A stretch of DNA of 64,000 nucleotides from an uncultured Prevotellaceae bacterium (GTDB lineage: Bacteria; Bacteroidota; Bacteroidia; Bacteroidales; Bacteroidaceae), in NCBI GenBank assembly GCA_947166305.1, contig CAMVDV010000005.1, positions 39,210 through 103,209 of the forward strand, written 5' to 3'. The notes under the pieces are model-generated. The model worked only from the letters and a program-made list of their open reading frames with translations. It ran no database searches and was not told the origin of the DNA. Below, piece by piece: positions 2,558 to 35,172 of this stretch. How positions within the stretch are numbered: position 1 is the stretch's first letter; every line of letters starts with the position of its first letter. The position numbers and the translations under genes were made by a program.

Positions 2558-2923
2558 GTGATTATTTTCTTTCGACGGCACTTTTTCGCTCAAAAAAATA
2601 CGCTTTATTGTAAAAATCTCTGTCCGACCCCTCGTTAAGCGCCTTGAGTTGACGCCATTTTCCCCTGAAAATCCGTCGGGAACGACACCGTTTTCGTCAG
2701 CCCGTCGGCAAGGCCGTAAGTGCCCGGGCAATTCGGCGGCAAAAGACACCCTGTTTTCTTCGTCTTTGCATATTACAGTTTTCGAGTGCATAAAAATTAC
2801 ATATCGCCGATTCCTCGCCAGATAAGCACTTATCGAAAATGTGAAGAAAAAAGGACAAGGAAGACGATTTAATGCCAAAATGGGGGTGTAAAATGAAAAA
2901 ATGTGCAAATAAGCGAAAAAAAT

Positions 2924-2965
2924 GGGGGGGGGTATTGCATATATAAAAAAGACATTTTAACTTTG
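2924..2965 (+). promoter_or_regulatory. Candidate promoter of the fimbrial operon with an adjacent G9 tract
   Basis: G9 at 2924-2932, TATTG at 2933-2937, 20-bp spacer, TAACTTTG at 2958-2965 (TAnnTTTG). Confidence 0.6.
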
Positions 2966-3128
2966 CAGCCGATTTTAGTTGCGCATATGTTAAAACAATT
3001 AAAAATATGCATACACGCGCGAGCGAATAAATAAGTGTAGTTAACTAATACCGATAGAAAACTTAACTTACATTCAAACAAAGGAATCAACGACATTCAG
3101 GTTAACAACGTTTAACAACACGGAGAAT

Positions 3129-8574: not shown

Positions 8575-8662
8575 CGGAAATAATGCTTGGCCTTTACAGG
8601 AAGAAGGCTTGACCATTAGCGGCAGAATGCTTGGCCATTACGGAGATAATGCTTGACCATTA
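8575..8662. repeat. 22-nt tandem array (4 units)
   Basis: CGGAAATAATGCTTGGCCTTTA / CAGGAAGAAGGCTTGACCATTA / GCGGCAGAATGCTTGGCCATTA / CGGAGATAATGCTTGACCATTA, starting at 8575, 8597, 8619 and 8641. Confidence 0.95.
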
Positions 8663-8779
8663 TTGACCGTTTGCCGCAGGGTGCGTGTCGGCACAGGCTT
8701 CCCGGCATATCCGAAACTCAAATAAATATAATGTCCGCGCACATACGAGGCCGGTGCCTCGGCGCGACGCAGAGAGAAG

Positions 8780-11156: not shown

Positions 11157-14100
11157 ATGCCTAATATGCTCAATAAGCTCTATAAGCCAGATATGTTATA
11201 TGTGAAGCTCCTTCTGGGAGCTCTGCTGCTTTGCCCGATGCAGGTTCTCGGCCAGATCGTCATCGGCGGCAACGTCTATGGCGGCGGCAATCGCGGCGAC
11301 CTCAAGGGAACTGCCACCGTGGTCGTTCAGAGCGGCACCATTGAGGGAGACGTGTTCGGCGGAGCCCGTATGGCCGACGTGACGCCCACCACGTTCGAGG
11401 AACAGACCATCAACGGCGTCACCCTCCCGGAGGACTATGCCACCCATGTGCTGATATGGGGCGGCAACGTAAATAATGTATATGGCGGCAACGACATCAC
11501 AGGCAACATCACCGGCGGCACCAACGTGGAGATATACAGCAACGTGGGCGGCGACGTCTATGGCGGCGGCAACGGCTCCTATGTCTATACAGACCAAACC
11601 TCACTGAAGGACGACATCACCTACGGCGACCTCTTCTATGAGGTGGGCGAGGGACAGACATCGGTGCAGGCGCTCAATGCCTTCCGTCCCAACATCGACA
11701 AGACATTGGTCCACATCTCCGGCAAGAGCGCCGAACTCACCGGCAGCACAGAGCAGACCACCTACATCGCCGGCCGCGTGTTCTGCGGCGGCAACAGCGC
11801 CACGCTCCGCTCCTCGGCCGGCGACCCCTTGGCCGAACTCAGGATAGGTTCTCATGTCGTGGCAAACAATGTCTTCCTCGGCTCCAACGGTGAGAACATG
11901 GTCAACACCACCACTCTCCAGAACTATGCCGACGCTTCCGTCAACAGCATGGACCTGACCGATGCCGGCACCTTTGCCGACTATATGCTCGGCGTGGACA
12001 TGAACATCAACCCGACGGTTTCCTTCGATGCAAACTATGCCGAAGAGACGGCCTACATCGGTTCCTTCTTCGTCGGAGGCAACGTGGGCAGTATGTCTGC
12101 CGCAGGCACCTTCGACATCAGCTTCCCGCACAAGGTTCTCATTTACAACAAGCTTGTGGGCGGTTGCAACCAGGCCAACGTCCCCTATTCCGAATACAAT
12201 GCAGCCCATGAGGGTGGCATCACCACTGCGGCCAATCCCAAGGTCGTCCTCAATCTTGCAGGCCTGAAGCTTGAACCGCGTCTGCTCAATTTCGACACGT
12301 CCACCAATACCTATTCCCTCGACTGGAACAAGACGGCCGACAATATGCTCATCGGCGGCAATGTCTATGGCGGCTGCTATAACAGCGGCTACGTCAATGG
12401 TGGCGTGAACATCAACCTCTGGGCCGATGCCATATCGCCCGCAGTCAGAACGGCTGCCGACGGCACCACCTTGAAGACGCTTGTCGACCATCGCGACGCT
12501 GTGCTCAACACAGCTCTCAGCATCTTCGGCGCCGGCTATGGCGAGGACTCCGAGATTTGGGGCAACACAACCATCAACATCTCCGACAAAGCCGACATCG
12601 TCAAGGTCTTCGGCGGCGGCGAGAAGGGCGTCGTGGGCAACCTGACCCGTGATGCCAACGGCGTTCGTACAGGAGGAGTTGATGCGGTTTCCAATACGAC
12701 GATTAACCTCACCGCGGGCAACGTCGGCAAGATCTACGGCGGCGGCTTCGAGGGAGGAGTCACAGGTCATACCACCGTCAACCTCGTCGGCGGCACAGCC
12801 TACGACGTCATCGGCGGTGCCTGCAATGCCGAGATCGGTGAATATGCCGAGACATACATCGGTAAGGCCGGCACTTCCACCATGCCTAACATTATTAATA
12901 ATGTATATGGTGCCAACGACTTTGGCGGAGTGATAAAGGGTTCAAAGAGCTATGCAGACCGTGTCACTTCCGAGGCTTCTTCTCAGGTTTACAACAACAG
13001 CCTGCTCACGACATCTGCCTACGTAGAGTACCTCAAGGGAAAGGTCAACTATATCTTCGGCGGCGCCAAAGCTTCTTACGACTACAAAGACCAGACCCTC
13101 TACTCTGCTTACGCCAATGCCGACGGAACAGCGAAGGATGGTTTTGAGAAGCCCTCCATCAGCGGAGCCTTTGTTAACTTCCGCCCCGAGTATTCTGTCG
13201 ATAGCAGAGTGGCCCGTGTCTATGGTGCAGGCCAAGGATACTTCAATGAGATAGACAAGGACCTCCTTCAGGATCATGGCTATGTCCTCATCGACATTCC
13301 GGCCGACGTGGAGAACTTCGGTCGTCTGGAAGTGTTCGGTGCAGGCGACTATAGTGGCATCGGCATGGAAGTCCCTGCCGCTGCGGTTCGTACTAACGAA
13401 GAAACAGAAGGCGACGTCACAGCAGCAGCCGTCATCGACCTCGTGCGCGGCAACATTAACTCTGTCTATGGCGGAAGCTATAAGCAAGGCTTCACACGTC
13501 GCACCATTGTGAACGTGCCCGAAGGCTCAACCATCGACTTGAACTACCTCTATGGTGGTGCATACGGCGTTTCAGCTGCCGACGGCAATTTGCTCGGCAA
13601 TCTTTATCCTTGCGACGTTTACGAATCGAATGTGAACTTCAAAGGCAAAGACGCCCGCGTCAGGACAATCTACGGCGGCAACAACAGCTATCGCCGTACA
13701 CTCTATGCGCACGTCAACATTCACACGCCGGTGAAGTATGTGCATCAATCCTATGGACTGACCCACGCCAACATCTTCGGCGCAGGTTATGGTGAGAACA
13801 CCTGGGCACAATATACAGAAATAAACCTGCTCGACAACGCTGCGGTTTATGAAACTTACGGCGGCGGCGAGGCAGGTAGTGTATATAATAAGGTATCAGC
13901 ACAAGCTCTGGCCGATGCGAATGGCTGGAGCCTTGCCATGCCTGGTGACTACGGAACGACAGATGCTTCTTATGACCACGGCGGCCTTGACAATGCCTTG
14001 GCTCACTCCAACCAGCTCTATGCTGACTACGGACCGACCAACGACAATGTCAACGTAGCAGAGAAGTATAATACTAATGTACATATTAATAAAGGTACAA

Positions 14101-17100
14101 ACGTATTGAACTATGCCTATGGTGCCGGTCTGGGTAGCCATATCTATACTTACAAGTTCGACGGCAACTTTGCAGGCAACACTCAGCCCCAGCCGTCAGA
14201 CTATATTTCTGGAGCCACGTCTCCCGATGACTTGGATGCAGAGGCAAGGGCTAAGTATCAGTCTGCACTGGAGGCTTACAATGCATACAGTGCTTACACC
14301 AGCGGAACAATTGTAGGTGCCAATGAGTACAATGCTTTCAACGATACGCAGAAGTCGCATTGGAATCTGGAAGCACAGCGCACCACAGCCGTCGTGAGCG
14401 GAACCTCCTATATTGAACTTTTGGGCGGTACAGTAGCAAAGGACCTTTATGCAGCCGGCACAGTCGGTGCCGTGCAGGACACGCTCCGTCTCGGTACGGG
14501 CGTCTTCACCGCATCGTCAACGGCATACGTCAGGGGTGGAACAGCACGTAACGTCTATGGCGGCGGTTGGGAAGGTCCTGTCGGCAAGCACGACATGTCG
14601 AAGGCTGCCAACTTCCTCGACGAGGATGAATTGGGCGTGACCAACGTCATCGTAGGCCGTCCAGAGGAAGATATTGCAACGGACTATGCAGCAGCACTTG
14701 CAGGCGATGCAACGCTCGACAAGCAAGAGTTCTACTACTACAATGGCATCCCGGCTATCTTGCGCGACGTCTATGCCGGTGGTGAAGGAGGTGTGGTACG
14801 TGGCACGGCCAACCTCGATATCTTCAACGGAATGGTTGGCTATCGTTACAAGGACAAGTCTGCCATTACAGCAGGAGAGAAGAACTACTATAAGATTACG
14901 ACCGACGGTGATGGTAACATCACTTATGTACCCCTTAAGGACGGCGACGACTTGAGCGCCGAGAAGAGCCTCTATGTTGAAGAAGTCGACCAGGACAATG
15001 TCGGCGACAACATCTTGTTCGAAGCCGGCAATGCCTTCGGTGGCGGCTATGCAGCCAACAGTGATGTCGATATCGCTAACATTACTCTTTGGGACGGCAT
15101 CATCCGCAACAGTATGTATGGTGGCGGTGAGATTGCTACCATTGGCCGAGGCACTCAGGCCAAGAATGCTTCAAATGAATTTGAAGTAACTGTCAACAAG
15201 CCCGGCGAGACTCACGTCACCATGATGGGTGGCCATGTGCTGCGCGACGTCTTTGGCGGCGGCCGTGGTTTCAATGCATGGAAGACCGAGGATAAGACGG
15301 AAGGCAATACCAACGGCTATGTCTTCGGACAGACCGACGTCAACATCCACCTTGGCACGATTGGCACTCTCGAGGGAGTGTCAAAGGGTTATGGCAATGT
15401 ATTCGGCGGTGGTAACGTCGGATTCGTCTATAGCCAATATGGCAAGCAAGCAGACGGATGGTATTATGAAGATTACAGCACGAAGAAGCTCTCTGAAGAC
15501 ACTCGTGTAGAAGTGAAGGCTTATGGCAGGGCTTTGGAAGCTGTCAGCATTGACGGCACCACCTACCAGAAGCGCGACTACATTCCTAACACCAAGCTCG
15601 ACAAGCTGACCAACAGCGATGCCGACAAGCAGTTGTGGGCAAAGGTAGATCAGAGCGGCATCACCATCTACAATGCCGTCTTTGCCGGTGGCAACGTTTC
15701 GGCTGGTAGTGATAAGATTATGGCCTTCTCGAAGACCGTTTACGGCAACTCCACTGCCGCAGTCATCGACGTCTATTCGCGAGACCTCATCAGTGTCGGA
15801 GGCAAAGGCGTAGGCGGACTCTATGGCGACGGCAACCTCACTTTCGTCGACGGCTACCGCGAACTCAACATCACCAACTACGGCACCGACTGGTACTCGC
15901 TCTCCGGAGGCGTGGACTCTGACGAGGAGTTCAATGCGCTGACAGTCCGCCAGCAGTCGTTCTATACCACACAGTACGAATGCGTCGAGGCATATTCTCC
16001 TTATGAAAAGGGCGACATCATCCTGCACGACGTGTTCCTCTTGGTGGACGATGCAGACAAGGACAAATGGAAGCGCAAGCAGTCTATTGTCAATGAAGGA
16101 CGCTTCATCAACACAGTCCAGCGTTGCGACTTCTGTGGCATCAAGGGCAGCCGACTGGTGCTCCACGGAGCCATCGACCGTGCACAGGATGAGGCTGAGG
16201 CCGACTATACCAACTACACTATCAACCGTGTGGGCGAGCTCTCTCTCAACCAGAACCAAGAACATGGCAGCTACTTCGGCATCAACAACGTGGTGAAGTT
16301 CCTCGGTGGCGTCACGTCCGATGTGAACTTCTCAGAAGTGCGCAAGACGAACAGTGCCGTTACAGGCGACTATGCAGCAGACGGAAAGACCTATTACGAA
16401 TGGAAGGAGGAACACATCAACGATAACATGCGCAACGATGGCAGTGCTCCCAACAAAATTGCACTTTCCTCTGGCGTGTTCCTCGAAATCGTGAAGGAGC
16501 TTGATACGAGTGGCAACAAGGTCTATGGCCCCATCACTGGTGTCGTAGAGCTCGACTTGCTCAATGTCTCTCCCGGTGAAGGTGGTGGCTATGTATATGC
16601 CAAGAACATCCATGGTGTGCCCACGCACACTCCCATGTATGCCGACGTCATCTCCGATGCCAACCAGAACCTCGTCACGAACCGTGCGTTCACCTATGCC
16701 GAGGCTACTGCCGACAACGAGATGCAGACCTCTGGCAACTTCATCCATTCGCTGCCCAAGCACATCCTTGATGACTGCTTCCCCGAGTCGAAGAAGTATG
16801 TAGGTGCCAATGCCTCACCCGCTCACTATTGGTACATCCGTGGTGAGTACTATGTATATGAGCAGCTTGTGTCGGCCTATACAGGCGGAGCCGATGCTTA
16901 TAATACCGAGATGAGCATCCCGCTCACCATGTCCATCCAGGGCAATGCCAAACTGCGTCTGCTCAACGTGATACCCGGCCTTTATGCCGATCCTTCCCAG
17001 TTGGCACTTCGCTCCTACAATTCGGCCGATCCTTCCCTTTCCATCTCCGACTCCATCTCCATCGCCCGCAACGCTGTGGTCAAGACCTACGGACAGGGTG

Positions 17101-20100: not shown

Positions 20101-22154
20101 ACGAAGGATATGTCACCACGTATGCCAACATGGTTTACACGCTCAACTATGCCGACACCGACTACGCTCGCTTCGACAAGACGACGGGCGGCAAGGTGGG
20201 TTACGTCGAGAAGTACGTCGACGACGGCGACTTCCGCTTCTCCGACGGCAAGAAGCCTTTGAAGCCCGACATGCGCTTCTCTTCCGACTACGGCTATCTG
20301 CCGCTCTTCCCCGACGACTACATCTTCTTCGGACAGAAGCTTACGTACAACATCCAGACTGGCGCCGGCGGCGCTGTCATCCCCCACGCCTTGCATCCGC
20401 AGGCTGTGGCCAAGAGCCACACCATTGGCAGCGACGAGGATGTCGACAACAGCCGTCACGGTCTGCTCATCAACGACATCAACGATCGCTCGGAGAACCG
20501 CATCTTCCGTGCACCGGCCTACTATCGCAACGGCACCTACGGGCGGTATGCCATCTTCAATGCCCGTGCCGTCTTCGTCGATAACTTCGACTTCACGGCT
20601 GGCGGAGCGTCCTATCACACCACGCCGCACGAGGGCATGACGGCCATCGACTTCACCGGTGGCAACGGCGACACCCACGGATATCAAGGCGTAGTGGCTG
20701 GCGTTGAGGACAAGGAAGGTGTGGCCGGCGACTTCACCGACCGCGCTCATGGCTATCGTCCGTTGCTCGACTTCGAGCGCCTCGATGCCTTCCAGACGCA
20801 GGGCCTCACCCAGAACCTGTTGGCCTACACGCCGCCCACCGGACAGGAGGGCACTAAGAACCAGCAGACGCACGATGTGCTCGCAAACTACTTCCACGAT
20901 CTCAGCTATGCCGAGGAGGACGACAACTATCGCACCGTCTCAGTGCAGAACGCACAGAACGTCAAGGGTCACGTCGTGCTGCAGGCCGGCACAGAGCTCG
21001 TTGACGGCGAGTACAGCTACGTCACCGATGTCGATCACTTCCTTGTGGACAAGCAGGACTTCAACGCACCGATTCCGTTCAAGTATGCGGCCGACAAGCG
21101 TATGTGGTACCAGCGTACGCCCGACAACTACGTAGAGGCCACCTGGAGCGACGATGCCACGCCTGTTCGCACCACCAAGGGTTGGGAAGGCGTCTGCCTG
21201 CCCTTCCAGGCCGAGCTCGTCACCACGCAGCAGAAGGGTGAGCTCACCCACTTCTACGACGGCAGCACTTATGGCCATGAGTACTGGCTCCGAGGCTTTG
21301 CCGACGGCGGTACGCTCAATGGCGACATCTATGAGGCCAACTTTGTCTATCCCGAGGCCGGCACCAACGAGAAGGACTACACCAACACCTTCCTTTGGGA
21401 CTACTACTATCAGTACTCCAGCAGCAACCGTCAGGACGACAATACCGACGAGTACCAGCAGCGCTACTATGCTGCAGCCAAGCAGTATGCCGACTATCCC
21501 TTCTCCACGGCAGGCAAGCCCTACATCGCAGGCTTCCCAGGCACTACGTACTATGAGTTCGACCTCAGCGGAACGTTCGTGCCCGAGCACCCGCTGCAGG
21601 ATGTCGAGGCACTCGATGCACAGGTCATCACCTTCGCTTCCGCAGCCGGTGGCAGCATCGCCAAGAGCGACACCGAGCTCACTGCAGGAGCCGACGGCAG
21701 CACCTTCGGCGGATACGTCTTCACGCCCACCTATCTCAACGCGGCAGTCAGCGCCGGAGCCTACATGCTCAACGCCGACGGTAGCAGCTACGTGCTCACC
21801 GATGCCGAGACGCAGGCAGTGCCCTTCCGCCCGTACTTCACGCAGGCAGGCGGAGGAGTCAAGGAGTACAAGCCGGCCCTTGCACGCGCCATCAGCTTCA
21901 AGCGCGTCAGCACCGACATCCAGAGCGAAGAGCAGGCGGAGGGCGACAAGAACCTCGACGGACAGCTTGTCATCACATCAAGGCACAGACGCATCATCGT
22001 CAACTCCGGACTCCACGAGGAGACCACGGTGCGCATCTACAACACCTCCGGTGCCATCGTGCGCGTCTTCGACATACAGCCCGGACAGACCGTCGAGACC
22101 CAAGTCGCACCAGGCATCTACATCGTCAACAAGAAAAAGATATCAGTAAAGTAA
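11157..22154 (+). CDS. Giant Gly-rich repeat secreted protein (3665 aa) with C-terminal sorting-like domain
   Basis: Sec signal (LLLGALLLCPMQVLGQ); many NVYGGG/VFGGG repeats; GLUG-like segment near 19600-19830; C-terminus TTVRIYNTSGAIVRVFDIQPGQTVETQVAPGIYIVNKKKISVK resembles a type IX secretion sorting domain. Start lies 1 nt after the fimbrillin stop. Confidence 0.85.
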   Translation: MPNMLNKLYKPDMLYVKLLLGALLLCPMQVLGQIVIGGNVYGGGNRGDLKGTATVVVQSGTIEGDVFGGARMADVTPTTFEEQTINGVTLPEDYATHVLIWGGNVNNVYGGNDITGNITGGTNVEIYSNVGGDVYGGGNGSYVYTDQTSLKDDITYGDLFYEVGEGQTSVQALNAFRPNIDKTLVHISGKSAELTGSTEQTTYIAGRVFCGGNSATLRSSAGDPLAELRIGSHVVANNVFLGSNGENMVNTTTLQNYADASVNSMDLTDAGTFADYMLGVDMNINPTVSFDANYAEETAYIGSFFVGGNVGSMSAAGTFDISFPHKVLIYNKLVGGCNQANVPYSEYNAAHEGGITTAANPKVVLNLAGLKLEPRLLNFDTSTNTYSLDWNKTADNMLIGGNVYGGCYNSGYVNGGVNINLWADAISPAVRTAADGTTLKTLVDHRDAVLNTALSIFGAGYGEDSEIWGNTTINISDKADIVKVFGGGEKGVVGNLTRDANGVRTGGVDAVSNTTINLTAGNVGKIYGGGFEGGVTGHTTVNLVGGTAYDVIGGACNAEIGEYAETYIGKAGTSTMPNIINNVYGANDFGGVIKGSKSYADRVTSEASSQVYNNSLLTTSAYVEYLKGKVNYIFGGAKASYDYKDQTLYSAYANADGTAKDGFEKPSISGAFVNFRPEYSVDSRVARVYGAGQGYFNEIDKDLLQDHGYVLIDIPADVENFGRLEVFGAGDYSGIGMEVPAAAVRTNEETEGDVTAAAVIDLVRGNINSVYGGSYKQGFTRRTIVNVPEGSTIDLNYLYGGAYGVSAADGNLLGNLYPCDVYESNVNFKGKDARVRTIYGGNNSYRRTLYAHVNIHTPVKYVHQSYGLTHANIFGAGYGENTWAQYTEINLLDNAAVYETYGGGEAGSVYNKVSAQALADANGWSLAMPGDYGTTDASYDHGGLDNALAHSNQLYADYGPTNDNVNVAEKYNTNVHINKGTNVLNYAYGAGLGSHIYTYKFDGNFAGNTQPQPSDYISGATSPDDLDAEARAKYQSALEAYNAYSAYTSGTIVGANEYNAFNDTQKSHWNLEAQRTTAVVSGTSYIELLGGTVAKDLYAAGTVGAVQDTLRLGTGVFTASSTAYVRGGTARNVYGGGWEGPVGKHDMSKAANFLDEDELGVTNVIVGRPEEDIATDYAAALAGDATLDKQEFYYYNGIPAILRDVYAGGEGGVVRGTANLDIFNGMVGYRYKDKSAITAGEKNYYKITTDGDGNITYVPLKDGDDLSAEKSLYVEEVDQDNVGDNILFEAGNAFGGGYAANSDVDIANITLWDGIIRNSMYGGGEIATIGRGTQAKNASNEFEVTVNKPGETHVTMMGGHVLRDVFGGGRGFNAWKTEDKTEGNTNGYVFGQTDVNIHLGTIGTLEGVSKGYGNVFGGGNVGFVYSQYGKQADGWYYEDYSTKKLSEDTRVEVKAYGRALEAVSIDGTTYQKRDYIPNTKLDKLTNSDADKQLWAKVDQSGITIYNAVFAGGNVSAGSDKIMAFSKTVYGNSTAAVIDVYSRDLISVGGKGVGGLYGDGNLTFVDGYRELNITNYGTDWYSLSGGVDSDEEFNALTVRQQSFYTTQYECVEAYSPYEKGDIILHDVFLLVDDADKDKWKRKQSIVNEGRFINTVQRCDFCGIKGSRLVLHGAIDRAQDEAEADYTNYTINRVGELSLNQNQEHGSYFGINNVVKFLGGVTSDVNFSEVRKTNSAVTGDYAADGKTYYEWKEEHINDNMRNDGSAPNKIALSSGVFLEIVKELDTSGNKVYGPITGVVELDLLNVSPGEGGGYVYAKNIHGVPTHTPMYADVISDANQNLVTNRAFTYAEATADNEMQTSGNFIHSLPKHILDDCFPESKKYVGANASPAHYWYIRGEYYVYEQLVSAYTGGADAYNTEMSIPLTMSIQGNAKLRLLNVIPGLYADPSQLALRSYNSADPSLSISDSISIARNAVVKTYGQGDPISYWDWYNATTAERSMFVMEGDAMVCNTEATIDGRKYYPREAITRSAYEALAGKTAYDDSGNVILDEDTMQPVDAQSLFFVINEVNHDNGYLLTLDFSNPSSRDDYYRLISEAGGTPIKKKDWAALSDLEKEKYVKSATFTCNASGTYGQYVFRKEDIISHNVYTMQTSDVQNNATQTQAEFNPAYLAKEDCEVNVGGLLKSFTKGTPISSTDYAVIANASDYFEPAYICVSTVLVGSGDYRVLNQLVGESEYSAWGGDIQERFQQAYYCTKDGSWGGKYYEAGKNYNGVDYCQLLPEERAHFDYNYDALDALLYNNYASNHAQGAYHYGSIGDYTSYINQVGGTNHNSAISVFDRPGQPFYSASARLDYRATFNSENADNNFQYAKDTDDIAVSEGTVLNNEQYENLPNDRKFYASFAVSDAHLKDMDDNDWADGNYHTFIVKNTFEVAGNMYNAGKTISHKDYSNLTTTQQGYVDEVVIPYSEEGTHGIGTYYFCIEEYPVGANDGSITSHGSGIPDFPTEVTDINNTTYAKGSSVPVGTVINSATMASIPNYQMHFNITGEIPIEETTLYVPVSADIDALQRDRYVTAIYEYSYTESDASGMNYETRVEKHIINIRIKFLSGTPVIGSLKEPDLVLPLETVALDIPSIQEGAFPILGGGWEIYPTEDNAKHHRNGREYVNGGEPLYFYQNDYYVAYYALTRMGKTFSDPVPVHVANYQRMADVINNPFHMYINHRDNDRDPKIYIDGRSVDTYGEAIRDKDEAEVVREYNNELDAMQAVWRIVNTSYGSQYNEEVDGKSRNITGANGLEFFLQNEVGSQLPSWTPIGDNTQCFAGIFHGNGNTVTGLNNSLFGHLCGRVYNLGVMGNFTTGGVANTGEGRIENAWVWTSATPSGQAVYANPDAGARVINTYYPDANSTFTGSTGNLEITERPVEDFVNGSVAYDLNRYYLEARHRLFGQKTDGTVNDNIFYRLPNGSLQKDKTTQIADANGKNPGDEGYVTTYANMVYTLNYADTDYARFDKTTGGKVGYVEKYVDDGDFRFSDGKKPLKPDMRFSSDYGYLPLFPDDYIFFGQKLTYNIQTGAGGAVIPHALHPQAVAKSHTIGSDEDVDNSRHGLLINDINDRSENRIFRAPAYYRNGTYGRYAIFNARAVFVDNFDFTAGGASYHTTPHEGMTAIDFTGGNGDTHGYQGVVAGVEDKEGVAGDFTDRAHGYRPLLDFERLDAFQTQGLTQNLLAYTPPTGQEGTKNQQTHDVLANYFHDLSYAEEDDNYRTVSVQNAQNVKGHVVLQAGTELVDGEYSYVTDVDHFLVDKQDFNAPIPFKYAADKRMWYQRTPDNYVEATWSDDATPVRTTKGWEGVCLPFQAELVTTQQKGELTHFYDGSTYGHEYWLRGFADGGTLNGDIYEANFVYPEAGTNEKDYTNTFLWDYYYQYSSSNRQDDNTDEYQQRYYAAAKQYADYPFSTAGKPYIAGFPGTTYYEFDLSGTFVPEHPLQDVEALDAQVITFASAAGGSIAKSDTELTAGADGSTFGGYVFTPTYLNAAVSAGAYMLNADGSSYVLTDAETQAVPFRPYFTQAGGGVKEYKPALARAISFKRVSTDIQSEEQAEGDKNLDGQLVITSRHRRIIVNSGLHEETTVRIYNTSGAIVRVFDIQPGQTVETQVAPGIYIVNKKKISVK

Positions 22155-22174
22155 CGCACACACTCTCTCATCAC

Positions 22175-22275
22175 CTCGCACGCGGAGCTTCAGGACTCCG
22201 CGTGCGAGGATAGCAAACACCGCACGCGACAACCGGCATCGCCGCACGCGACGACCGCCAACACCGCACGCGAAA
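22175..22275. repeat. 22-nt phased array (5 cores), units 1 and 2 forming a 13-bp hairpin
   Basis: CGCACGCG or its inverse CGCGTGCG at 22177, 22199(inv), 22221, 22243 and 22265. CTCGCACGCGGAG/CTCCGCGTGCGAG stem at 22175-22208. Confidence 0.95.
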
Positions 22276-22468
22276 ATTCACACCCTCACTCACCCCATCC
22301 ACGCAACACCCTGTCAACGACATGACAACAACGCATACACCAACCGACACGCCGCAGCAGGCAGACCCCATGCTTTGCTTGCAAGGATATGCTATACCCA
22401 TCCGCAAAACCATCGAGACCGACTCATAAAACGGTACGAATCGCAATAACTTAACCATCGAAACGACT

Positions 22469-25400: not shown

Positions 25401-28400
25401 TCAGAAATGGTGGTTTCACGACGGATCCTAATTACAACAAGAACTCAGGTATGTTCGAGCCTGGTATCTATACAGGCACAACAGAATACACATGGGAGCA
25501 AGTCGCCAACTACCCTGCAGAGGGTGGTGCGGGCTTCGACGGCACACAGGTCATCACCACGCAGAACCTCGATAAGACCAACCTCGGCTCTGTCGGCAAC
25601 GTCCAGCTCACCATCAAAGGCACCACCGAGGTGAAAGGCAGTGTCTATGGCGGCGGCGAAGAGTCCATAGTGACCGGCAATACAGTCGTCAACATCGAGG
25701 GCGGCACCATCGGCACCGGTGGCTTGGGCGGTGCAGACTTTGGCAACGTCTATGGCGGCGGTAAGGGAATGAAAAACGACGTCAAGGCAGGATGGGTTCA
25801 GGGAAATACCACCGTCAACATCAGCAGCCTGCCCGACAACAACAAGACAAAAGTGCTGCACAACGTCTATGGCGGCGGCGCCTTCGGCTCGGTGGGTACC
25901 TTCACTTACGCTGCCGACAGTACGATAACGGGATACACCTCCGGCGGTCAGGCCACGCTGAACATCTTATCCGGCACCTTCGGCACCGATGGACACGACA
26001 ACGGCATGATTTTCGGTTCTTCTCGTGGTCAGGAAGGCAATCCCCTCACAGATACCAATATCGACAAATTGGCTTGGGTGTACAACACCGTAGTCAACGT
26101 CGGCACGGCAGGCTCTGCCACCGGCCCCATGGTCAACGGCTCCGTCTATGGCGGCGGCGAGAACGGACACAACTACCAGAATGCCGCAGTCAACATCCAC
26201 AGCGGCACCATCGGCTATACATCCTACGACCCCACGTCCGGCTACAATTGCGGCAGTGTCTTCGGCGCTGGCTGCGGCACAGACAAATACACCGTTGGCG
26301 AAGTGCAGCACTACAATCCCCTGGCCGGTACGGTCTGGGGCAATACCACCATCGCGATTGACGGCGGACACATCCGTCACAACGTCTATGGCGGCGGTGC
26401 CATCGGCTCGGCTGGCAAGGCCGACGGCTCCAATGGCAAAGCCACCATCACCGTCACCGGAGGCCGCGTCGGTACCGACGGCAATGACAACGGTAACATC
26501 TATGGTGCTCCACGAGGCGACAGCGATGCGACAGATGCCGATATCGCTCAGGTGGTAGATACAGAAGTAAACATTAATTACGCCACCACGCCCACCGGCG
26601 ACAATACGGAGCATACGGCCCAACTCATTGCGGGCTCTGTCTTCGGCGGCGGTCAGTCGGGTGTCGTCAGACATAGCGTCGTCGTCAACATGAAAGGCGG
26701 ACTCGTGCTTCGCGACCTCTATGGCGGCAGTGCGCTGGCCAATACGAACATCGGCAACGCCACGAACTACGGCACCAGTAGCGAAGCCATATCTTCCACT
26801 TCGACCTATACCACAACGCTGAACCTCCACGGCGGCATCGTCGGACACAATGTCTATGGCGGCGGCTTGGGACGCAAGGCCGCTACGGGCGTGGCACCTG
26901 TGGCAGCCCTCGTTTATGGTGATGTAATGGTGAAGCTGAACGAGACCATCGCTACGGACAATTGCAGAGTAAAGGGGAATGTCTTTGGCTGCAACAACTA
27001 CAACGGAACGCCGAAGGGAATACCTACTGTCCACGTTTACAAGACCGTGGGCTACGACGAAAGCCACAAGAAATCGACGGATAAGGACGACACCACTTAC
27101 GACGTCCATGCGGTCTATGGCGGCGGCAACGAGGCGGCTTACCAACCCGCCTTGAGCACCTCCTCCACCAACGTCATCATCGACGGCTGCGACCTGACGA
27201 GCATACAGTACGTCTATGGCGGCGGCAACGCTGCACCGGCTCCTGCCACACAAGTGACCGTCAACAGTTGCTACGAGATAGGCAGTCTGTTCGGCGGCGG
27301 TAATGGTTACGACGATTTGGAAGACGGCTCGCCTAACCCTGGTGCTGATGTCGGTCTCATCAATGGCTCACCCTATGGCTCAGGCGATGCCAATACCATC
27401 ATCTACGGCGGCACAATCCACGAAGCCTATGGAGCCAGCAACCAGAAAGGCTCCATCCGAGGCTCCATCAACCTCAACGTGCAGGAAGACGGCGCCTGCC
27501 CCCTGAACATCGACAAGATGGTAGGTGCCGGCAGGAACGCTGACATCGACGGCGACGTTATCCTCGTCATGGGCTGTATGCCCGACACGAAGACGGCACT
27601 CGTCTTTGGCGGTGCCGACAATGCCAACGTCAATGGCAACGTCGAGCTGACCATCACCAGCGGCACGTTCGGGCAAGTGTTCGGCGGCAACAACCTGGGT
27701 GGCATCATCAAGGGCCACCTCAAGGTCAACATCGAGGAGACAGGCTGTCGCCCCATCAAGATTGACGAGCTCTATCTCGGCGGCAACGAGGCTGCCTACT
27801 CCGTCTTCGGTTACTACGACAGCGGAGAGACCGACACCTTCGACAGGCCGATTTATCTGCCCAGAGTGTCGGCCGACGATGCAAATGCAGCCATCGCCAA
27901 TCCTGCAGCCGATGCCAATCACTCCTTCCCCTACGCTCAGCCAGTGCTCAATGTCATCTCCTGCACGAGCATCGGCAAGGTGTTCGGCGGCGGACTCGGT
28001 ACGGGAGCGGCCATGTATGCCAACCCGACGGTCAACATCAATATGATACCAGGCAAGTATGCCAATCTCTTGCCCGACGACGAGAACAACCCCAACCGGC
28101 TCGGCGCAGTGGAGAACGTCTATGGCGGCGGCAACGAAGCTGCCGTCCACGGCAACACCACAGTCAACGTGGGCACTACGATAGGGCAGGAGATAACTCT
28201 GGCATCCACCGGAGCCACGGCAAATGTCCTGGGAGCATACATCACCGGCACCGTCTATGGCGCAGGCAAGGGCATCGCTTCCGACCCCGATGCTGCCATC
28301 GTGACGGGCAATACGCAGGTCAACCTTGGCGGCGGTCATGTATTGCGCAGCATCTATGGCGGCGGCGAACTTGGCTCTGTCGGCACCTTCACTGAGAAGT

Positions 28401-31400
28401 GGGACGCAAACCAGTTCGATTCCGACAAGAAGGCTTGGCACTTCAAGGACGAACCCAAGGCTTGTAAGGAAGGAACGGGCTTGGCTGAGGTCATCATCAC
28501 CGGAGGACAGGTGGGCCTCAACGGACAGCTCATGCCCGACCCCACAAAGCCGACGGCCGACGACGACTTCGGCTACGTCTTCTGCGCCAGCAAGGGCATT
28601 GCCGACTCCCTCACCTACGAGAAGGCCAACCTGCTCGCCGTGGTAGGCAATACACACCTCGAAGTCAGCGGCGGCCTCATCATCGCTTCCGTCTATGGCG
28701 GCTCCGAGAACGGAGAGGTGCTCACCGACACGCATGTCGAGATAAAGGGCGGTCAGATTGGCACAGGCCACTACAAGGAAGGCGAAGAAGATCGCTGGGA
28801 CGGCATATACGAAGAGGATGCCTGGACGGCAGCCATTGCCAAGGTCAAGGACGGCACCTTCACCGATGCCGATGCCGAAGGCTTCCACCTGTGCGACGCC
28901 TGGCCCTTCGGTCCGGAAGGCGACCGCCATGTCTACGACCACTATGCCGGCACGGAAGGCTATGATGCCAAGGGCGGAGCCTCTCCCGGCAGCGACGGTC
29001 ACAGCTACTTCGGCCACGTCTTCGGTGGCGGCAGCGGATACTATCCCTTTGCTGCTGGCATGTGGCGCCGTACGGCAGGTCGCGTTTGCGGCAATACAAA
29101 AGTAGACATCACAGGCGGACACATATTAACTAATGTATATGGCGGCAACGAAATCACCGACGTGCTCGGCACGAGCCGGGTGGAGATGACGGGAGGCACC
29201 GTCGGCGTGCCACGCACACTGGCCGACATACAGGGACGCCCCGTCAACTGCAACCTCTTCGGTGCCGGCATGGGCGACCCGCGCGTCCTCTTCAACGGAT
29301 GGTCCAACGTGGCTTCCACCGAAGTCATCGTCAGGGGCGAGGCCGTCGTCTTCGGTTCCGTCTTCGGCGGCGGCGAGGACGGACACGTCTGGGGCAACGC
29401 CAGCACGACAATCGAAGGCAACGCCGTGGTAGGCACCTTCGGCTCCTCGGGCGTCGACGGCAACGTCTTTGGCAGCGGCCGCGGCTTCTCGGGCATCGCA
29501 CTCACGGCAGGCGTGGTCTGCGGCAACGTCGAGGTCAACATCAACGGCAAAGCCAAGGTTTATGGCTCTGTCTTCGGCGGCGGCCGTATGGCAGCCGTTG
29601 GCACCTACCTCGCGGCTGATGACAACGAAAACTATGGCGCAATGCAGTCAGGAGCTGACCATGGCAACGTCACGGTCAACATCACCGGCGGCACCATTGG
29701 CAACCTGACGAAGATGAACGACAACGAGTTCAGCACGGGCGACGTCTTCGGCGGCAGCAAGGGCGTGCTCTTGGACGAATGGGCCAAGAGCCAGAAGCTC
29801 GGCCTGGTGAAGAACACCACGGTGAACATCTCTCAGGCCGATGCAGCAAGCCCCACCACCATCTACGGCAACGTCTACGGCGGCGGCGAGATTGCCTCTG
29901 TCGGCTACTATAAGTATGCTACGGCAGAAGAGGCTGCCAGCTACAACGCCACCCACACCTTCGAGGAGAGGTCTGTGGGCGACGTGTATGCCCTGCTCGA
30001 CGAGAATGCAGGCACGGCCACCATCAACATCACCGGCGGCACCATCGGCCAGAACAGCACTACCGACACTCATGGCCTTGTCTTCGGCGGCTGCCTCGGA
30101 AGGTCCGGCAAAGACTACTCCGGCTATTCCTTCGTGAACAAGTCCTTCGTCACCCTCGACGGCGGCACCGTCTATGGCTGCGTCTTCGGCGGCGGCGAGA
30201 ACGGACACGTCTTCAACGACACTGATGTGGAGATCAAGAGCGGCACCGTCGGCATTCCCTTGGACAAGGAGCACATCGCCGATGCTGCCCTCGTGGACAA
30301 CCTTATATATAGAGGTAACGTCTATGGCGGCGGTCGAGGCATCGACTTGACCCCTGGCGGCGACTATAGCATCACGGCCGGCAAGGTGGCAGGCAACACC
30401 GTGGTCAACGTCACGGGCGGCATCATCTATCGTAACGTCTATGGCGGTGGCTCGCTTGCCTCGGTGGGTGACCCCAACGAGACGGCCGATACCGACGGCA
30501 ACTTCAGCACCGGCCTTGCCACAGTCAACATCACTGGCGGACAGATAGGCACCGACGGCGCTGCCAGCGCCAACGACTATACCAGCACTTCCACTACTCC
30601 CATCCGCGAACACCGCAGGGAGAACGGCTTCGTCTTCGGCTCCGGCCGTGGTATGGCAGCAGGCTCTGTGGGCAACAAGACGCTCGTGGACATGGCTTAC
30701 GTCAAGAACACCCTCGTCACCATCGCTGGCGAGGCAAACGTCACGGGCTCCGTCTTCGGCGGCGGCGAGAACGGCCATGTGCGCAAGGACACCAAGGTCT
30801 ATGTCAAGGAGAACTGCTTCATCGGCACCGAACTGAATGATGCCGAGCATGAGATAGACGATAACGGTCGAGGCCGACTCCTCTATCGTGGCAACGCATA
30901 CGGTGGCGGCCGAGGCATCGACCACATGGTCGATGATCCTTCGCAGTACAGCCTCACCGCCGGACGTGTGGAGGGCAACACCTTCATCGAAGTGAGCGGC
31001 GGCAAGATTTACCACGACGTCTTCGGCGGTGGTTCGCTGGCATCTGTCGGCAAGGCTACGGTGAACAACGTGACCGGCGAGGTGACCTACGAAGGCGATA
31101 CCGGCAACAGCGAGGTACACATCAAGGGAGGCATCATCGGCTACTCTTCCGATGCCGACAAGCAAGGCTTCAACTGCGGCTTTGTCTATGGCGGCTGCCG
31201 CGGTCTGGCCGTAGCACCCTACGACGATGCCGTGAAGATGGCTTATGTCCACAATGCCCGAGTCTATATCGAGCCGGGAGCCGACGTCAAGGGTTCCGTC
31301 TTCGGTGGCGGTGCCAATGGTCATGTGAAGGGCAACACCTATGTTGAAATCACTGGCGGTTCCGTAGGCACAGCACTTCAGTCCGAAGAAGTGGGCTTCG

Positions 31401-34400
31401 ACGATTATGGTGTAGCCGTGAAGCCTGTGTTCCGAGGCAACGTCTATGCCGGCGGACGCGGCGTGGACCTCTATCAGCAGGAAGGCACCGACCGCTTCAG
31501 TCTGACGGCAGGTGCTGTCTATGGCAATGCCGAACTGAAGATGACGGGCGGCCACGTCTGGCACAATGTCTATGGTTCCGGCGCTATGGCATCGGTAGGT
31601 ACCGTCGAGGCCAAGCCTGCGGGCGTTCATGTCCACGACGAGATAGTTGACGACGGCGGCAACATCGTCAACCCCGACGGCAGCGACGTGAACTACCTGA
31701 CCGGCGTCTTCACGGAGAACACCGGCAAGGTGACCGTAACCATCACGGGCGGCACCGTGGGCGACACTACTCCCGGCCACGAAGGGCGCAACAATGGCCG
31801 CGTCTATGGTGCAGGTCGAGGCGTATCGGCAAGCCGAAGCGACCATGTGGCCAGCATGGAGTATGTGAACGACACTTATGTCAACATCGGCACCAGCGGG
31901 CAGCAGCCCTCCGACTACAGCGGCAGCGCACCTGGCGAACTGAACTATCCTTATATATATGGTGCCGTGTTTGGCGGAGGAGAGAACGGTCACGTCAAGT
32001 CCGACACCCACGTCAACATCTACAGCGGCATCATCGGCTGGCCTCTCGACGAGGGTGAAAGCCAACAGCACAAGACTTCGGCCGACGGCACATCGAAGAA
32101 TCCTCGCCGAGGCCACGTCTATGGCGGCGGACGCGGTGTGGATCCCCTCTATCACTCGTCGTCCGAGACCCGAAGCTCTACGGCCGGCCGTGTCTATGGC
32201 CACGCCTATGTCACGATGACGGGCGGTGTGGTTCGCCGAGCCATCTATGGTGGTGGCAACCTGGCCTCCGTGGGTATCTACAGACTGGCACAGTCCGACC
32301 TCCACATCGTCGACATGATAGAGGATGAAGAAGATTCTGGCGATGCCACCATCAATATCAGTGGCGGCATCATCGGCAACGTCAACCCCGACGGAACAGC
32401 CCTCAGCGGAACTTCCACCACTGGCCTTCCCTTCCTTGCCCCAGGCGACAACAACGGCCATGTCTTCGGTTCCGGCTGCGGCATGGTGGCCGACAACTAC
32501 ATAGAGGACGGCGTTGCCATCGACCAGCAGTATCGTCAGATGGGTTACTCGCACTCCACTCATGTCAACATCAGTGGCGGACAGCTCTATGGCAGCGTGT
32601 TTGGCTCCGGCGAGAACGGCCACGTCTGGGAAGACACCCGCATCAACATCACTGGCGGCACTATAGGTAGCGAGGAAAGCACGCTCATCTACTCCGGCAA
32701 CGTCTATGGTTCCGGCCGAGGTGTTGACCATCCGCACTTCCATGTCAGTGAGACAGCCGGCAAGGTGCGTGGCAACACGACGGTGAACATCACCGGCGGC
32801 ACCGTATGGCGCGACGTCTACGGCGGCGGCTCCCTGGCCTCCGTTGGTGAAGAAGGCGAGACGGGCGACGATTCCCATATCAACGTCACCGAGGACCCGC
32901 TGACCACCAATCCCTTCCCCTTCTCTTCGGGTCTGACGCGCGTCTACGTCAACGGCACTTCGGCCACCCCCGTCATCCACGGTTCCGTCTATGGCAGCGG
33001 GCGCGGCGTAGCCAGCAGCAACACCGAGTACAGGCAGGCCGCTTACGTCAAGAACACGCTCGTCACCGTCGGCAAGGCCCACGTCTTCCAGAACGTATTC
33101 GGCGGCGGCAATGCCGGCCACGTAAGGCGTAACACGACGGTGAGCATCCTGGACGGCGCCAAGGTGGACGGCAACGTCTACGGCGGCGGCGCGGGCAGCA
33201 TCAAGTCGCCCACGGCCGGCCTCGTGAACCACGACGTCACGGTGAACATCGAAGGCGGCCTCGTGGGAGGCGACGTCTACGGCGGCGGTGCCATCGCCAA
33301 CACCAACACCCACGACAAGCGCAACAACCCGAGCCTCTATGCCGACGGCACGACAGCCAAGGCCCGCACCTCCGTCTACGGCAATCCCTCCGAGGACGCC
33401 CTCTGCAAGACCGCAGTGAACCTGACCGGCGGCATCGTCCTCGGCAACGCCTACGGCGGCGGACAAGGTGTCATCCCCGAGGCCGGCGCCTCGGCCGCCG
33501 ACATCGCCAACGCCGGCGCCCTGGTGCGCGGCGACGTGACCGTCATCCTGAACGGCACAGCCTTCCATCCCACCACAACGACCGACGACCAGGGCAACAC
33601 CATCGCCGCCACCGGCCGCGTCTTTGGCTGCAATAACCTCAACGGCACGCCGCAGGGCACGGTGCTCGTGCATGTGCTCCGCACGAGAGGCGTCACGGAG
33701 AGCGGCGGCACATACACTGTCAACGATACCAAGCCGGAGAAGGGCACCGAGACCTACGAGGTGCAGGCCGTCTATGGCGGCGGCAACCTGGCAGCCTACG
33801 AGCCGTGGGTGGATACAGCCGACGGCCAGTACACCGCAAACTCCCACGTTGCCACTCAGCGACCCCTGCAGGTAGTCGTAGATGGCTGCGACGAGGCGAG
33901 CATCGAGTACGTCTATGGTGGCGGCAACGCTGCTGCCACTCCCAGCACCGACGTGCTCATGGTGGGCTGCTACGAGGTGGGCTACCTCTTCGGAGGCGGT
34001 AACGGTAAGGACCGCATCTACAAGAGTGAGACGTGGCAGGCCAATCCCGGTGCCGACGTAGGCTACACGGATGGCACCGTCAGCTACGGCACCGGCGAGG
34101 CCATCGTGGAGGCTTTGGGCGGCACGATAGGCAGCATCTTCGGCGGATCCAACACCAAGGGCAACGTCCGCCACTCTTCTGTGGCCTATCTCGACGAGGG
34201 GGGCGACTGCCCGCTGGATATCGACGAGGTCTATGGCGGCGGCAACGAGGCATTCATGGCTGGCAACTCTCAGGTGAAACTCGGTTGCATCACCCGTCTG
34301 AAGGCGCTCTACGGCGGCGCCAAGGCTGCTGATGTGGGTGGCGACATCAACCTGACTATCACGAGCGGACACTACGATCGCGTCTTTGGCGGCAACAATA

Positions 34401-34969
34401 TCAGTGGCGAAATCAGTGGCTCCATCACGGTGAACGTTGAGGAGACCGGCTGTCACCCCATCACCATCGGCGAGCTCTACGGCTGTGGCAACCAGGCAGC
34501 CTACACCACTCAGGCGGGCAAGGCCGACCCTGTCGTCAACGTGAAGTCGTTCACCAGCATCGGCCGCATCTTCGGCGGCGGACTGGGCGAGGGGGCTGTG
34601 GTGAAAGGCAACCCGACGGTCAACATCAACGAAGTGACCGGCCTGCGCTCCACCTATTCGCCCTGGGCATATCCCGGCACGACCATCACCTACAAAGACG
34701 GCACCAGTGTCACTCTGCCCACGCATGAGTCGGGCAAGATAGGCGCCATCGGTACCGTCTTCGGCGGCGGCAACGCGGCTAAGGTGGAGGGCAATACCAG
34801 CGTGAACGTCGGCACCGAAGAGAACGTCGTCTTCGTGACGCCCGAGACCGACAGCGAGGCCGACAGGACGAAGGCCGTGGAAGGTGTCAACATCCTGGGC
34901 AACGTCTTCGGCGGCGGCAACGAGGCCGAAGTCTCAGGCAAGTCCAATGTCGTGATAGGAAGAAAATAA
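22469..34969 (+). CDS. Giant Gly-rich repeat secreted protein (4166 aa), no recognisable C-terminal sorting domain
   Basis: Sec signal (ALLCLALLLTTFAAQAQ); GLUG-like N-terminal region; very many VYGGG/VFGGGENGHV/GGGSLASVG repeats; ends GNVFGGGNEAEVSGKSNVVIGRK. Confidence 0.85.
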   Translation: MQFNMFNRKVSKALLCLALLLTTFAAQAQTEITSLDQITNEDGNYKLTSDASGTPGVTTFRGTLEAAIDPTTKMPYRITGLDKPLFTTLTGTVKNLVLEDVNISGNTGNTGAIAATAEGAARIYNIGILSGSVGGTDNTGGLVGLLRGTAHVVNCYSYATITGGSNVGGIVGNNNTTTTAASIKTMVMNCMFYGDITGGSTVSPVFGGTNIANLNNGGLNTFNYYAYDELKTKAISNNKYNSALAVEQKFLNRFEFYRLLLNSNKKLAAFYATGNVADGGQMLKWVLETADRTIDNPKPYPILKAQGKYPSIINPDIEHAPDSATVGRNHGGKLSNKSGGTKTLSVTISGVGSNAPSGASITQGNLTLIRTDKDFDRFNFNYDKVQLPYYNDVGTGNCTGNRVVTGWKITAITAIDSDPYTAANYPTTGIKDFPDHNYADRRSSNKDLYSVSKRVFSQGAYFDVPYGVTSITIEPYWGKAYYIADQYYDVVYSANYQTKQGVSQTGTQVNTSSTLFNGQKVETSIERALNKITSELGGLGSTVYDNALVLVGNLHLNTVPQNGTTPFTMTSVDMDNDHEPDYSLIYHHTGRLSITPIRYDFLNIPGTAQAQKPNGASLICNFTIFKTRGWFETTNTALFYTSQLEYENLDNNTKTDAPLILLGGVVDQFVSTQSKAVTGKTIYIHVGGNVWIQEFGMGTHSDGSQSTPHVPVSVTGGEFPGFYLTGTYNANATIREDNAECYISGGYFHEVAGASQEGIKGNVHWQIYNADIDQFFGGGINEARPIQGTVTTDIYNSHVTLFCGGPKFGNMTTGKAVTTNAEGCTFGNFFGAGYGGNSYSRKKYYDKDGDQNWTTLQNYYVNDRGEYYNGTSTGSSQTSGKDYGKKGPGVATDFDYEFFVWSSGTTGARLFVKFVSFSLAQCDSVSSTLKKCTINENFYGGGSLGKVSGTARSELEDCTVMGNAFGAGYSATLPTIPVRNGGFTTDPNYNKNSGMFEPGIYTGTTEYTWEQVANYPAEGGAGFDGTQVITTQNLDKTNLGSVGNVQLTIKGTTEVKGSVYGGGEESIVTGNTVVNIEGGTIGTGGLGGADFGNVYGGGKGMKNDVKAGWVQGNTTVNISSLPDNNKTKVLHNVYGGGAFGSVGTFTYAADSTITGYTSGGQATLNILSGTFGTDGHDNGMIFGSSRGQEGNPLTDTNIDKLAWVYNTVVNVGTAGSATGPMVNGSVYGGGENGHNYQNAAVNIHSGTIGYTSYDPTSGYNCGSVFGAGCGTDKYTVGEVQHYNPLAGTVWGNTTIAIDGGHIRHNVYGGGAIGSAGKADGSNGKATITVTGGRVGTDGNDNGNIYGAPRGDSDATDADIAQVVDTEVNINYATTPTGDNTEHTAQLIAGSVFGGGQSGVVRHSVVVNMKGGLVLRDLYGGSALANTNIGNATNYGTSSEAISSTSTYTTTLNLHGGIVGHNVYGGGLGRKAATGVAPVAALVYGDVMVKLNETIATDNCRVKGNVFGCNNYNGTPKGIPTVHVYKTVGYDESHKKSTDKDDTTYDVHAVYGGGNEAAYQPALSTSSTNVIIDGCDLTSIQYVYGGGNAAPAPATQVTVNSCYEIGSLFGGGNGYDDLEDGSPNPGADVGLINGSPYGSGDANTIIYGGTIHEAYGASNQKGSIRGSINLNVQEDGACPLNIDKMVGAGRNADIDGDVILVMGCMPDTKTALVFGGADNANVNGNVELTITSGTFGQVFGGNNLGGIIKGHLKVNIEETGCRPIKIDELYLGGNEAAYSVFGYYDSGETDTFDRPIYLPRVSADDANAAIANPAADANHSFPYAQPVLNVISCTSIGKVFGGGLGTGAAMYANPTVNINMIPGKYANLLPDDENNPNRLGAVENVYGGGNEAAVHGNTTVNVGTTIGQEITLASTGATANVLGAYITGTVYGAGKGIASDPDAAIVTGNTQVNLGGGHVLRSIYGGGELGSVGTFTEKWDANQFDSDKKAWHFKDEPKACKEGTGLAEVIITGGQVGLNGQLMPDPTKPTADDDFGYVFCASKGIADSLTYEKANLLAVVGNTHLEVSGGLIIASVYGGSENGEVLTDTHVEIKGGQIGTGHYKEGEEDRWDGIYEEDAWTAAIAKVKDGTFTDADAEGFHLCDAWPFGPEGDRHVYDHYAGTEGYDAKGGASPGSDGHSYFGHVFGGGSGYYPFAAGMWRRTAGRVCGNTKVDITGGHILTNVYGGNEITDVLGTSRVEMTGGTVGVPRTLADIQGRPVNCNLFGAGMGDPRVLFNGWSNVASTEVIVRGEAVVFGSVFGGGEDGHVWGNASTTIEGNAVVGTFGSSGVDGNVFGSGRGFSGIALTAGVVCGNVEVNINGKAKVYGSVFGGGRMAAVGTYLAADDNENYGAMQSGADHGNVTVNITGGTIGNLTKMNDNEFSTGDVFGGSKGVLLDEWAKSQKLGLVKNTTVNISQADAASPTTIYGNVYGGGEIASVGYYKYATAEEAASYNATHTFEERSVGDVYALLDENAGTATINITGGTIGQNSTTDTHGLVFGGCLGRSGKDYSGYSFVNKSFVTLDGGTVYGCVFGGGENGHVFNDTDVEIKSGTVGIPLDKEHIADAALVDNLIYRGNVYGGGRGIDLTPGGDYSITAGKVAGNTVVNVTGGIIYRNVYGGGSLASVGDPNETADTDGNFSTGLATVNITGGQIGTDGAASANDYTSTSTTPIREHRRENGFVFGSGRGMAAGSVGNKTLVDMAYVKNTLVTIAGEANVTGSVFGGGENGHVRKDTKVYVKENCFIGTELNDAEHEIDDNGRGRLLYRGNAYGGGRGIDHMVDDPSQYSLTAGRVEGNTFIEVSGGKIYHDVFGGGSLASVGKATVNNVTGEVTYEGDTGNSEVHIKGGIIGYSSDADKQGFNCGFVYGGCRGLAVAPYDDAVKMAYVHNARVYIEPGADVKGSVFGGGANGHVKGNTYVEITGGSVGTALQSEEVGFDDYGVAVKPVFRGNVYAGGRGVDLYQQEGTDRFSLTAGAVYGNAELKMTGGHVWHNVYGSGAMASVGTVEAKPAGVHVHDEIVDDGGNIVNPDGSDVNYLTGVFTENTGKVTVTITGGTVGDTTPGHEGRNNGRVYGAGRGVSASRSDHVASMEYVNDTYVNIGTSGQQPSDYSGSAPGELNYPYIYGAVFGGGENGHVKSDTHVNIYSGIIGWPLDEGESQQHKTSADGTSKNPRRGHVYGGGRGVDPLYHSSSETRSSTAGRVYGHAYVTMTGGVVRRAIYGGGNLASVGIYRLAQSDLHIVDMIEDEEDSGDATINISGGIIGNVNPDGTALSGTSTTGLPFLAPGDNNGHVFGSGCGMVADNYIEDGVAIDQQYRQMGYSHSTHVNISGGQLYGSVFGSGENGHVWEDTRINITGGTIGSEESTLIYSGNVYGSGRGVDHPHFHVSETAGKVRGNTTVNITGGTVWRDVYGGGSLASVGEEGETGDDSHINVTEDPLTTNPFPFSSGLTRVYVNGTSATPVIHGSVYGSGRGVASSNTEYRQAAYVKNTLVTVGKAHVFQNVFGGGNAGHVRRNTTVSILDGAKVDGNVYGGGAGSIKSPTAGLVNHDVTVNIEGGLVGGDVYGGGAIANTNTHDKRNNPSLYADGTTAKARTSVYGNPSEDALCKTAVNLTGGIVLGNAYGGGQGVIPEAGASAADIANAGALVRGDVTVILNGTAFHPTTTTDDQGNTIAATGRVFGCNNLNGTPQGTVLVHVLRTRGVTESGGTYTVNDTKPEKGTETYEVQAVYGGGNLAAYEPWVDTADGQYTANSHVATQRPLQVVVDGCDEASIEYVYGGGNAAATPSTDVLMVGCYEVGYLFGGGNGKDRIYKSETWQANPGADVGYTDGTVSYGTGEAIVEALGGTIGSIFGGSNTKGNVRHSSVAYLDEGGDCPLDIDEVYGGGNEAFMAGNSQVKLGCITRLKALYGGAKAADVGGDINLTITSGHYDRVFGGNNISGEISGSITVNVEETGCHPITIGELYGCGNQAAYTTQAGKADPVVNVKSFTSIGRIFGGGLGEGAVVKGNPTVNINEVTGLRSTYSPWAYPGTTITYKDGTSVTLPTHESGKIGAIGTVFGGGNAAKVEGNTSVNVGTEENVVFVTPETDSEADRTKAVEGVNILGNVFGGGNEAEVSGKSNVVIGRK

Positions 34970-34992: not shown

Positions 34993-35072
34993 CGTCGCAC
35001 GCGAAGTCGGTCGATTTCGCGTGCGACGATTCGTATCATCGCGTGCGACGATTGGCATCGCCGCACGCGACG
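34993..35072. repeat. 22-nt phased array (4 cores)
   Basis: CGCACGCG 34996, CGCGTGCG 35018, CGCGTGCG 35040, CGCACGCG 35062; perfect 13-bp stem CGTCGCACGCGAA / TTCGCGTGCGACG. Confidence 0.95.
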
Positions 35073-35164: not shown

Positions 35165-35172
35165 TAACTTTG
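35165..35172 (+). promoter_or_regulatory. -7 box TAACTTTG of the regulator/NRPS operon
   Basis: TAnnTTTG match 38 bp upstream of ATG at 35210. Confidence 0.6.

Follow-up and report, generated by a model that had tools for sequence, protein, structure and literature searches.

Two giant repeat proteins at the end of a putative type V-like pilus operon in uncultured Bacteroidales

The window analyzed here, a stretch of 64,000 nucleotides from an uncultured Prevotellaceae bacterium, belongs to a metagenome-assembled genome, as do the loci of its relatives, and gene context was read from such assemblies throughout. On its plus strand, a run of genes opens with that for a DUF3575 outer-membrane-type protein of 548 aa (positions 3129 to 4775; Pfam DUF3575, E = 5.3e-12), overlapped by 4 nt by the gene for a 384-aa DUF5119-like lipoprotein with the lipobox LSGC (4772 to 5926). 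The DUF5119 match of the latter is weak and below the Pfam cut-off (13.2 vs 27 bits); the gene is a conserved neighbor in some relatives. Three fimbrillin-like genes follow, encoding a 791-aa lipoprotein with the lipobox LAGC (“fimA”; 6095 to 8470), a 384-aa FimB-like protein ending in VYNW (8780 to 9934), and a 396-aa FimC-like protein (9965 to 11155). Homologues of “fimA” occupy the same position in two relatives (G021 and G441), and short repeats of the type atgcttggcc(t)attacgg lie between the fimA-like and fimB-like genes (8590 to 8665). The run is completed by two giant genes, GIANT1 (3665 aa; 11157 to 22154) and GIANT2 (4166 aa; 22469 to 34969), whose coordinates and lengths agree with those given in an earlier, sequence-only reading of this DNA. 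As that reading also held, the first giant starts 1 nt after the fimbrillin-like gene directly 5′ of it, the FimC-like stop codon (TAA) lying at 11153 to 11155 and the GIANT1 ATG at 11157.

A promoter-like site of the Bacteroidota −33/−7 type (TTG ... TAACTTTG; 2934 to 2965, plus strand) precedes the operon. When the plus strand was scanned from 2400 to 35165 with TANNTTTG, the consensus of the Bacteroidota −7 box, the match at 2958 was the only intergenic one ahead of a further box at 35165 to 35172 (plus strand), while two other matches (17787 and 22896) fell within the giant ORFs. Intergenic promoter-like boxes were found by the scan once before the unit, once after it, and nowhere between the operon genes, an arrangement that fits a single transcription unit of ∼32 kb, of which the box at 35165 likely marks the end. 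This box precedes the gene adjoining GIANT2 (35210 to 37528), which encodes a sensor-type SpoIIE phosphatase with Cache-like and HATPase domains. Also close to the pilus operon is the gene for a two-module NRPS of 2439 aa (C-A-PCP-C-A-PCP; 39382 to 46701), which ends in a thioester-reductase-type NAD_binding_4 domain.

In the window genome, GIANT1 and GIANT2 are separated by a hairpin-bearing gap of 314 nt, a feature that we counted against a pilus-operon reading. REP-like palindromes (TCGCACGCG...CGCGTGCGA) lie directly 3′ of GIANT1 (22174 to 22209; RNA fold −30.8 kcal/mol, z −6.1), of GIANT2 (34993 to 35028; −30.6 kcal/mol, z −5.4), and of the NRPS gene (46721 to 46794; −54 kcal/mol), and a genome-wide search for the exact short-loop palindrome returned only the sites behind the two giants. 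Three relatives, L126 (16544 to 17731), G139, and G010, carry an ORF of 380 to 425 aa between the giants. The one in L126 has an HVHILL motif, which on visual inspection suggests a tyrosine transposase of the REP-associated kind; Pfam gave no match for two of these ORFs.

None of the three fimbrillin-like proteins encoded in the window had a Pfam match. Within the FimB-like family, however, 8 of 21 members matched P_gingi_FimA, 3 matched Mfa_like_1, and 3 matched Mfa2, while 3 of 26 relatives in the FimC-like family matched Mfa_like_1; when compared with the PDB, the FimC profile found 3sy6, the fimbrial protein BF1861 (E = 0.009). The name fimbrillin could thus be upheld because family or same-position relatives, rather than the window proteins themselves, match the FimA/Mfa families, and membership of the FimA/Mfa superfamily, expected of type V pilins, is seen through relatives, with the window proteins below threshold. 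Synthesis as lipoproteins, likewise expected of such pilins, is indicated by lipobox cysteines read by eye in P0005–P0008, that of FimC (C26) being invariant in 26 homologues.

Both giants begin with Sec-type signal peptides, the ends of which were read by eye as QVLG/Q and AAQA/Q in GIANT1 and GIANT2, respectively, and neither has a lipobox. In its strict form, the motif [VIL][YF]GGG occurs 7 times in GIANT1 and 37 times in GIANT2, vs 0.06 and 0.25 expected from 200 composition-shuffled sequences; for the loose form, the counts are 20 and 60, vs 1.0 and 1.6. That GGG repeats dominate the giants, as had been claimed, holds for GIANT2, where ∼60 units fill aa 751 to 4166 (24719 to 34966, plus strand), mostly 25 to 109 aa apart and partly arranged in super-repeats of ∼170 to 220 aa. 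It does not hold for GIANT1, in which the repeat region spans aa 40 to 1550 (11274 to 15806, plus strand), or about 41% of the protein, the remaining ∼2100 aa consisting of different domains and a T9SS-type tail. The most conserved part of GIANT1 is a core at aa 1480 to 1920 (15594 to 16916, plus strand), in which, across 15 genomes, more than 100 columns are invariant, some of them occupied by D, E, H, C, or R. Since TRF found no long-period array, the repeats are old, and recent tandem duplication at the DNA level was rejected.

Searches of Pfam, NCBIfam, and the PDB returned no relative covering GIANT1 or GIANT2 beyond a short GLUG-like stretch and the T9SS tail, and a profile of the GIANT1 core had no relative in any of the three. 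The GLUG- or M26_N-like stretch lies near the N terminus of GIANT2 (aa 58 to 127; 22640 to 22849, plus strand; Pfam Peptidase_M26_N, E = 1.2e-8) and spans only positions 181 to 247 of the 250 in the profile; as the match is limited to the N-terminal spacer region and no peptidase domain was detected, identity as an M26 protease was rejected. A ZmpB match in these searches was far below cut-off, and the literature that we searched for giant pilus-linked proteins, or for such repeat proteins, yielded none.

AlphaFold2 modeled GIANT1 aa 1090 to 1930 from 50 sequences mostly as strands (pLDDT 84.8, pTM 0.87), and this model had no significant Foldseek match (best E 2.8 in PDB and 0.08 in BFVD). 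For a GIANT2 tile modeled from its own repeats (pLDDT 74, pTM 0.83), Foldseek gave weak matches, among them left-handed helix transferases, tailspikes, and, only at E > 2, hemolysin A, none of them significant. Both giants are, on these models, predicted to be beta-rich, and neither beta-rich model had a Foldseek match below E 0.6 (PDB) or 0.07 (BFVD). Of the long beta-solenoid suggested by the sequence-only reading, the beta-rich character is, thus, borne out by globally confident models, but no significant match to a solved solenoid was found with Foldseek; with no PDB match for the confident GIANT1 model, a standard beta-solenoid is no more than a possibility. Judging from the models, a new fold in GIANT1 and GIANT2 is possible.

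GIANT1 ends in a T9SS type A sorting tail (aa 3611 to 3658; 21987 to 22130, plus strand), with the last 100 aa scoring 25.1 bits against TIGR04183 (cut-off 23); the same profile gave 16.7 bits on the full-length protein and 24.6 bits in the genome search. Of 28 GIANT1 tails, 17 matched TIGR04183 at E up to 0.01, and the tail follows the pattern GxYIVxxKKxxV. The window's genome has nine TIGR04183-type tails and encodes SprA, of the T9SS translocon (2653 bits). SprA was found in 22 of 23 family genomes with GIANT1 vs 89 of 128 others (p = 0.009, ancestry not corrected for); GIANT1 is present in G010, for which there was no SprA match, and this we counted against a T9SS-delivered pilus protein. 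No sorting tail was detected in GIANT2, including that of the window: None of 13 tails matched, most of them ending within the repeat itself, and GIANT2 as T9SS type A cargo was rejected on present evidence.

Among 151 genomes of the same family as the window, strong matches to the C-terminal third of GIANT1 were found in 23 and FimC profile matches in 22, 21 of which also have GIANT1 (Fisher p = 2e-22, shared ancestry not corrected for); in the sole FimC-only genome (G111), the N terminus of GIANT1 follows right after FimC at the contig end. A FimC-like gene lay directly 5′ of GIANT1 in all 17 contiguous family loci, with gaps of 10 to 78 nt. A GTDB scan with the conserved GIANT1 core returned 275 relatives, and among the best 80 of these, 76 were testable and 75 had FimC upstream of GIANT1, 73 of the 75 pairs being within 300 nt. 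A GGG- or GIANT2-type ORF was found downstream of GIANT1 by profile search in 56 of 60 loci. In a thin sample across the order, the GIANT1 core was present in 5 of 394 genomes, from three families. The hosts named in the relatives' records are herbivores (roe deer, yak, goat, sheep, cattle, water buffalo, horse, and reindeer). One GIANT1 relative (L181) sits in a genome labeled Lachnospiraceae (goat omasum RGIG2768), probably through a binning error. The upstream fimbrillin set differs among relatives, being either of the DUF5119/Mfa_like_1 type or of another type without Pfam matches, so that the fixed part is FimB-FimC-GIANT1. Linkage of GIANT1 to pilus genes, as proposed from the window alone, is strongly supported by this gene order, in which GIANT1 is immediately preceded by a FimC-like gene in virtually all relatives, and the promoter-like boxes before and after the operon also speak for it.

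The giants were further compared with those of the relative L126. Four-fold synonymous differences in GIANT1 amounted to about 5 to 22% in aa 750 to 1050 and 1350 to 3150 and to about 27 to 56% in the other segments, while the neighboring DUF5119, FimB, and FimC genes differed at 41 to 52% of such sites and SprA, the one reference gene compared, at 52%. The core segments of GIANT1 are much closer than SprA, as expected from recombination between species, and by these synonymous sites GIANT1 appears as a recombination mosaic between two species. The GIANT2-type protein of L126, of which the first 1201 aa lie in the locus, had no match to the N-terminal 700 aa of the window's GIANT2. Lengths differ greatly as well, and GIANT2-type ORFs reach 11,862 aa with 211 GGG motifs (G104:C104:35259-70847, L088-L090), this longest one being preceded by two shorter GIANT2-type ORFs.

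Mfa5 of Porphyromonas gingivalis is an ancillary protein at the tip of a type V pilus; it is exported by the T9SS and has the tail GAYIV...HKVLV (PMC7835359, PMC8313007). GIANT1 is like Mfa5 in being encoded with type V pilins, in its Sec signal, and in its T9SS C-terminal domain, a mark of the Mfa5 family that scores over cut-off here and ends in a similar pattern; this likeness supports the accessory or tip protein position ascribed to the giants before (PMC7835359, PMC8313007). GIANT1 is unlike Mfa5 in its 3665 aa, GGG repeats, conserved core, and the second giant behind it, and it has no PDB sequence or fold match; a search for VWA or Ig-like domains or homology to the solved Mfa5 gave no Pfam VWA match and no PDB sequence match. 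At most, by analogy, GIANT1 may work like Mfa5, and we do not class it as a member of that family. Type V pilus operons, as known for FimA/Mfa1 and Bacteroides relatives, likewise have several lipoprotein fimbrillins in a row that are FimA/Mfa relatives, and in the tip pilins known from them a single ligand-binding domain usually sits at the C terminus (PMC12632263); in the window, by contrast, two giants with no detected fimbrillin domain close the operon. The giants also share great length, repetitiveness, beta-richness, and secretion with exoproteins of the TpsA or filamentous haemagglutinin type, but they lack a significant fold match and a Pfam TPS domain, and the GIANT1 signal is of the T9SS type. 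Giant beta-helical adhesins that are very long, repetitive, and secreted make up that exoprotein type.

The reading that we favor, and consider fairly likely, is that the genes form a type V-like pilus operon (a DUF3575 protein, a DUF5119-like protein, and three fimbrillin lipoproteins) that closes with two giant accessory proteins, GIANT1 being a T9SS-delivered tip or ancillary adhesin and GIANT2 its partner. GIANT1 would be exported first by Sec and then, by virtue of its C-terminal sorting tail, by the T9SS; like Mfa5 in place and route, it would become part of the pilus, or be exposed together with it, as a very large tip or ancillary adhesin. A tip or adhesin role is what its position and export tag best suggest. 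GIANT2, as a partner repeat protein that is probably also extracellular, would lengthen this structure or attach to it. Both giants are probably outsized adhesive parts of the pilus. More tentatively, and with some doubt on our part, the giants may form an unrecognized class, with a fold absent from the PDB, that builds giant extracellular fibers on or with type V-like pili.

Could the giants instead be T9SS-type surface proteins, such as a coregulated coat or matrix fiber, that share the operon and are never part of the pilus? GGG-repeat giants of ∼2 to 3.8 kaa occur without fimbrial genes nearby in a few other families (G350, G496, and G487; L225-L231), some of them with T9SS-like tails, including giants in G350 and G487 with no fimbrial genes in view, and GIANT2 is divergently transcribed in G357; the repeat class is, thus, wider than the pilus system. 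GIANT1, moreover, has neither a lipobox nor a fimbrillin domain. However, of the fimbrillins it is linked specifically to FimC, and in different genera the two are paired almost one to one; from coregulation alone, so strict an order of FimB-FimC-GIANT1 would not be expected, which makes a mere coat unlikely in our view. The invariant D, E, H, C, and R residues among the more than 100 invariant columns of the GIANT1 core, together with the match of GIANT2 to the M26 N-terminal region, would suit surface enzymes, for instance hydrolases of glycans or peptides, or assembly factors, in which the repeats serve as spacers and the core as catalytic part. Yet the M26 match covers just the short GLUG-like profile end with no peptidase domain, no catalytic Pfam or NCBIfam family was found, and Foldseek matched no enzyme, leaving this role improbable. 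An assembly artefact in the operon neighborhood or the giant ORFs, which uncultured metagenome-assembled relatives and repetitive proteins might invite, is hardly credible, since dozens of assemblies, made independently in different studies and from different hosts, show the same order, with reading frames open over 11 to 36 kb.

If the giants are indeed accessory proteins of the pilus, the principle known from Mfa5, a T9SS-exported accessory on a lipoprotein-pathway pilus, would hold for several hundred uncultured members of the Bacteroidales, many of which come, judging from their records, from the guts of herbivores, with accessory proteins many times longer than Mfa5 and without known relatives. 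The conserved 440-aa core of GIANT1, with its more than 100 invariant positions, offers a structural target, and the locus connects, in a way that can be tested, two export pathways that may meet on one appendage. The giants would be candidates for what anchors these bacteria to fiber, mucus, protozoa, or neighbors.
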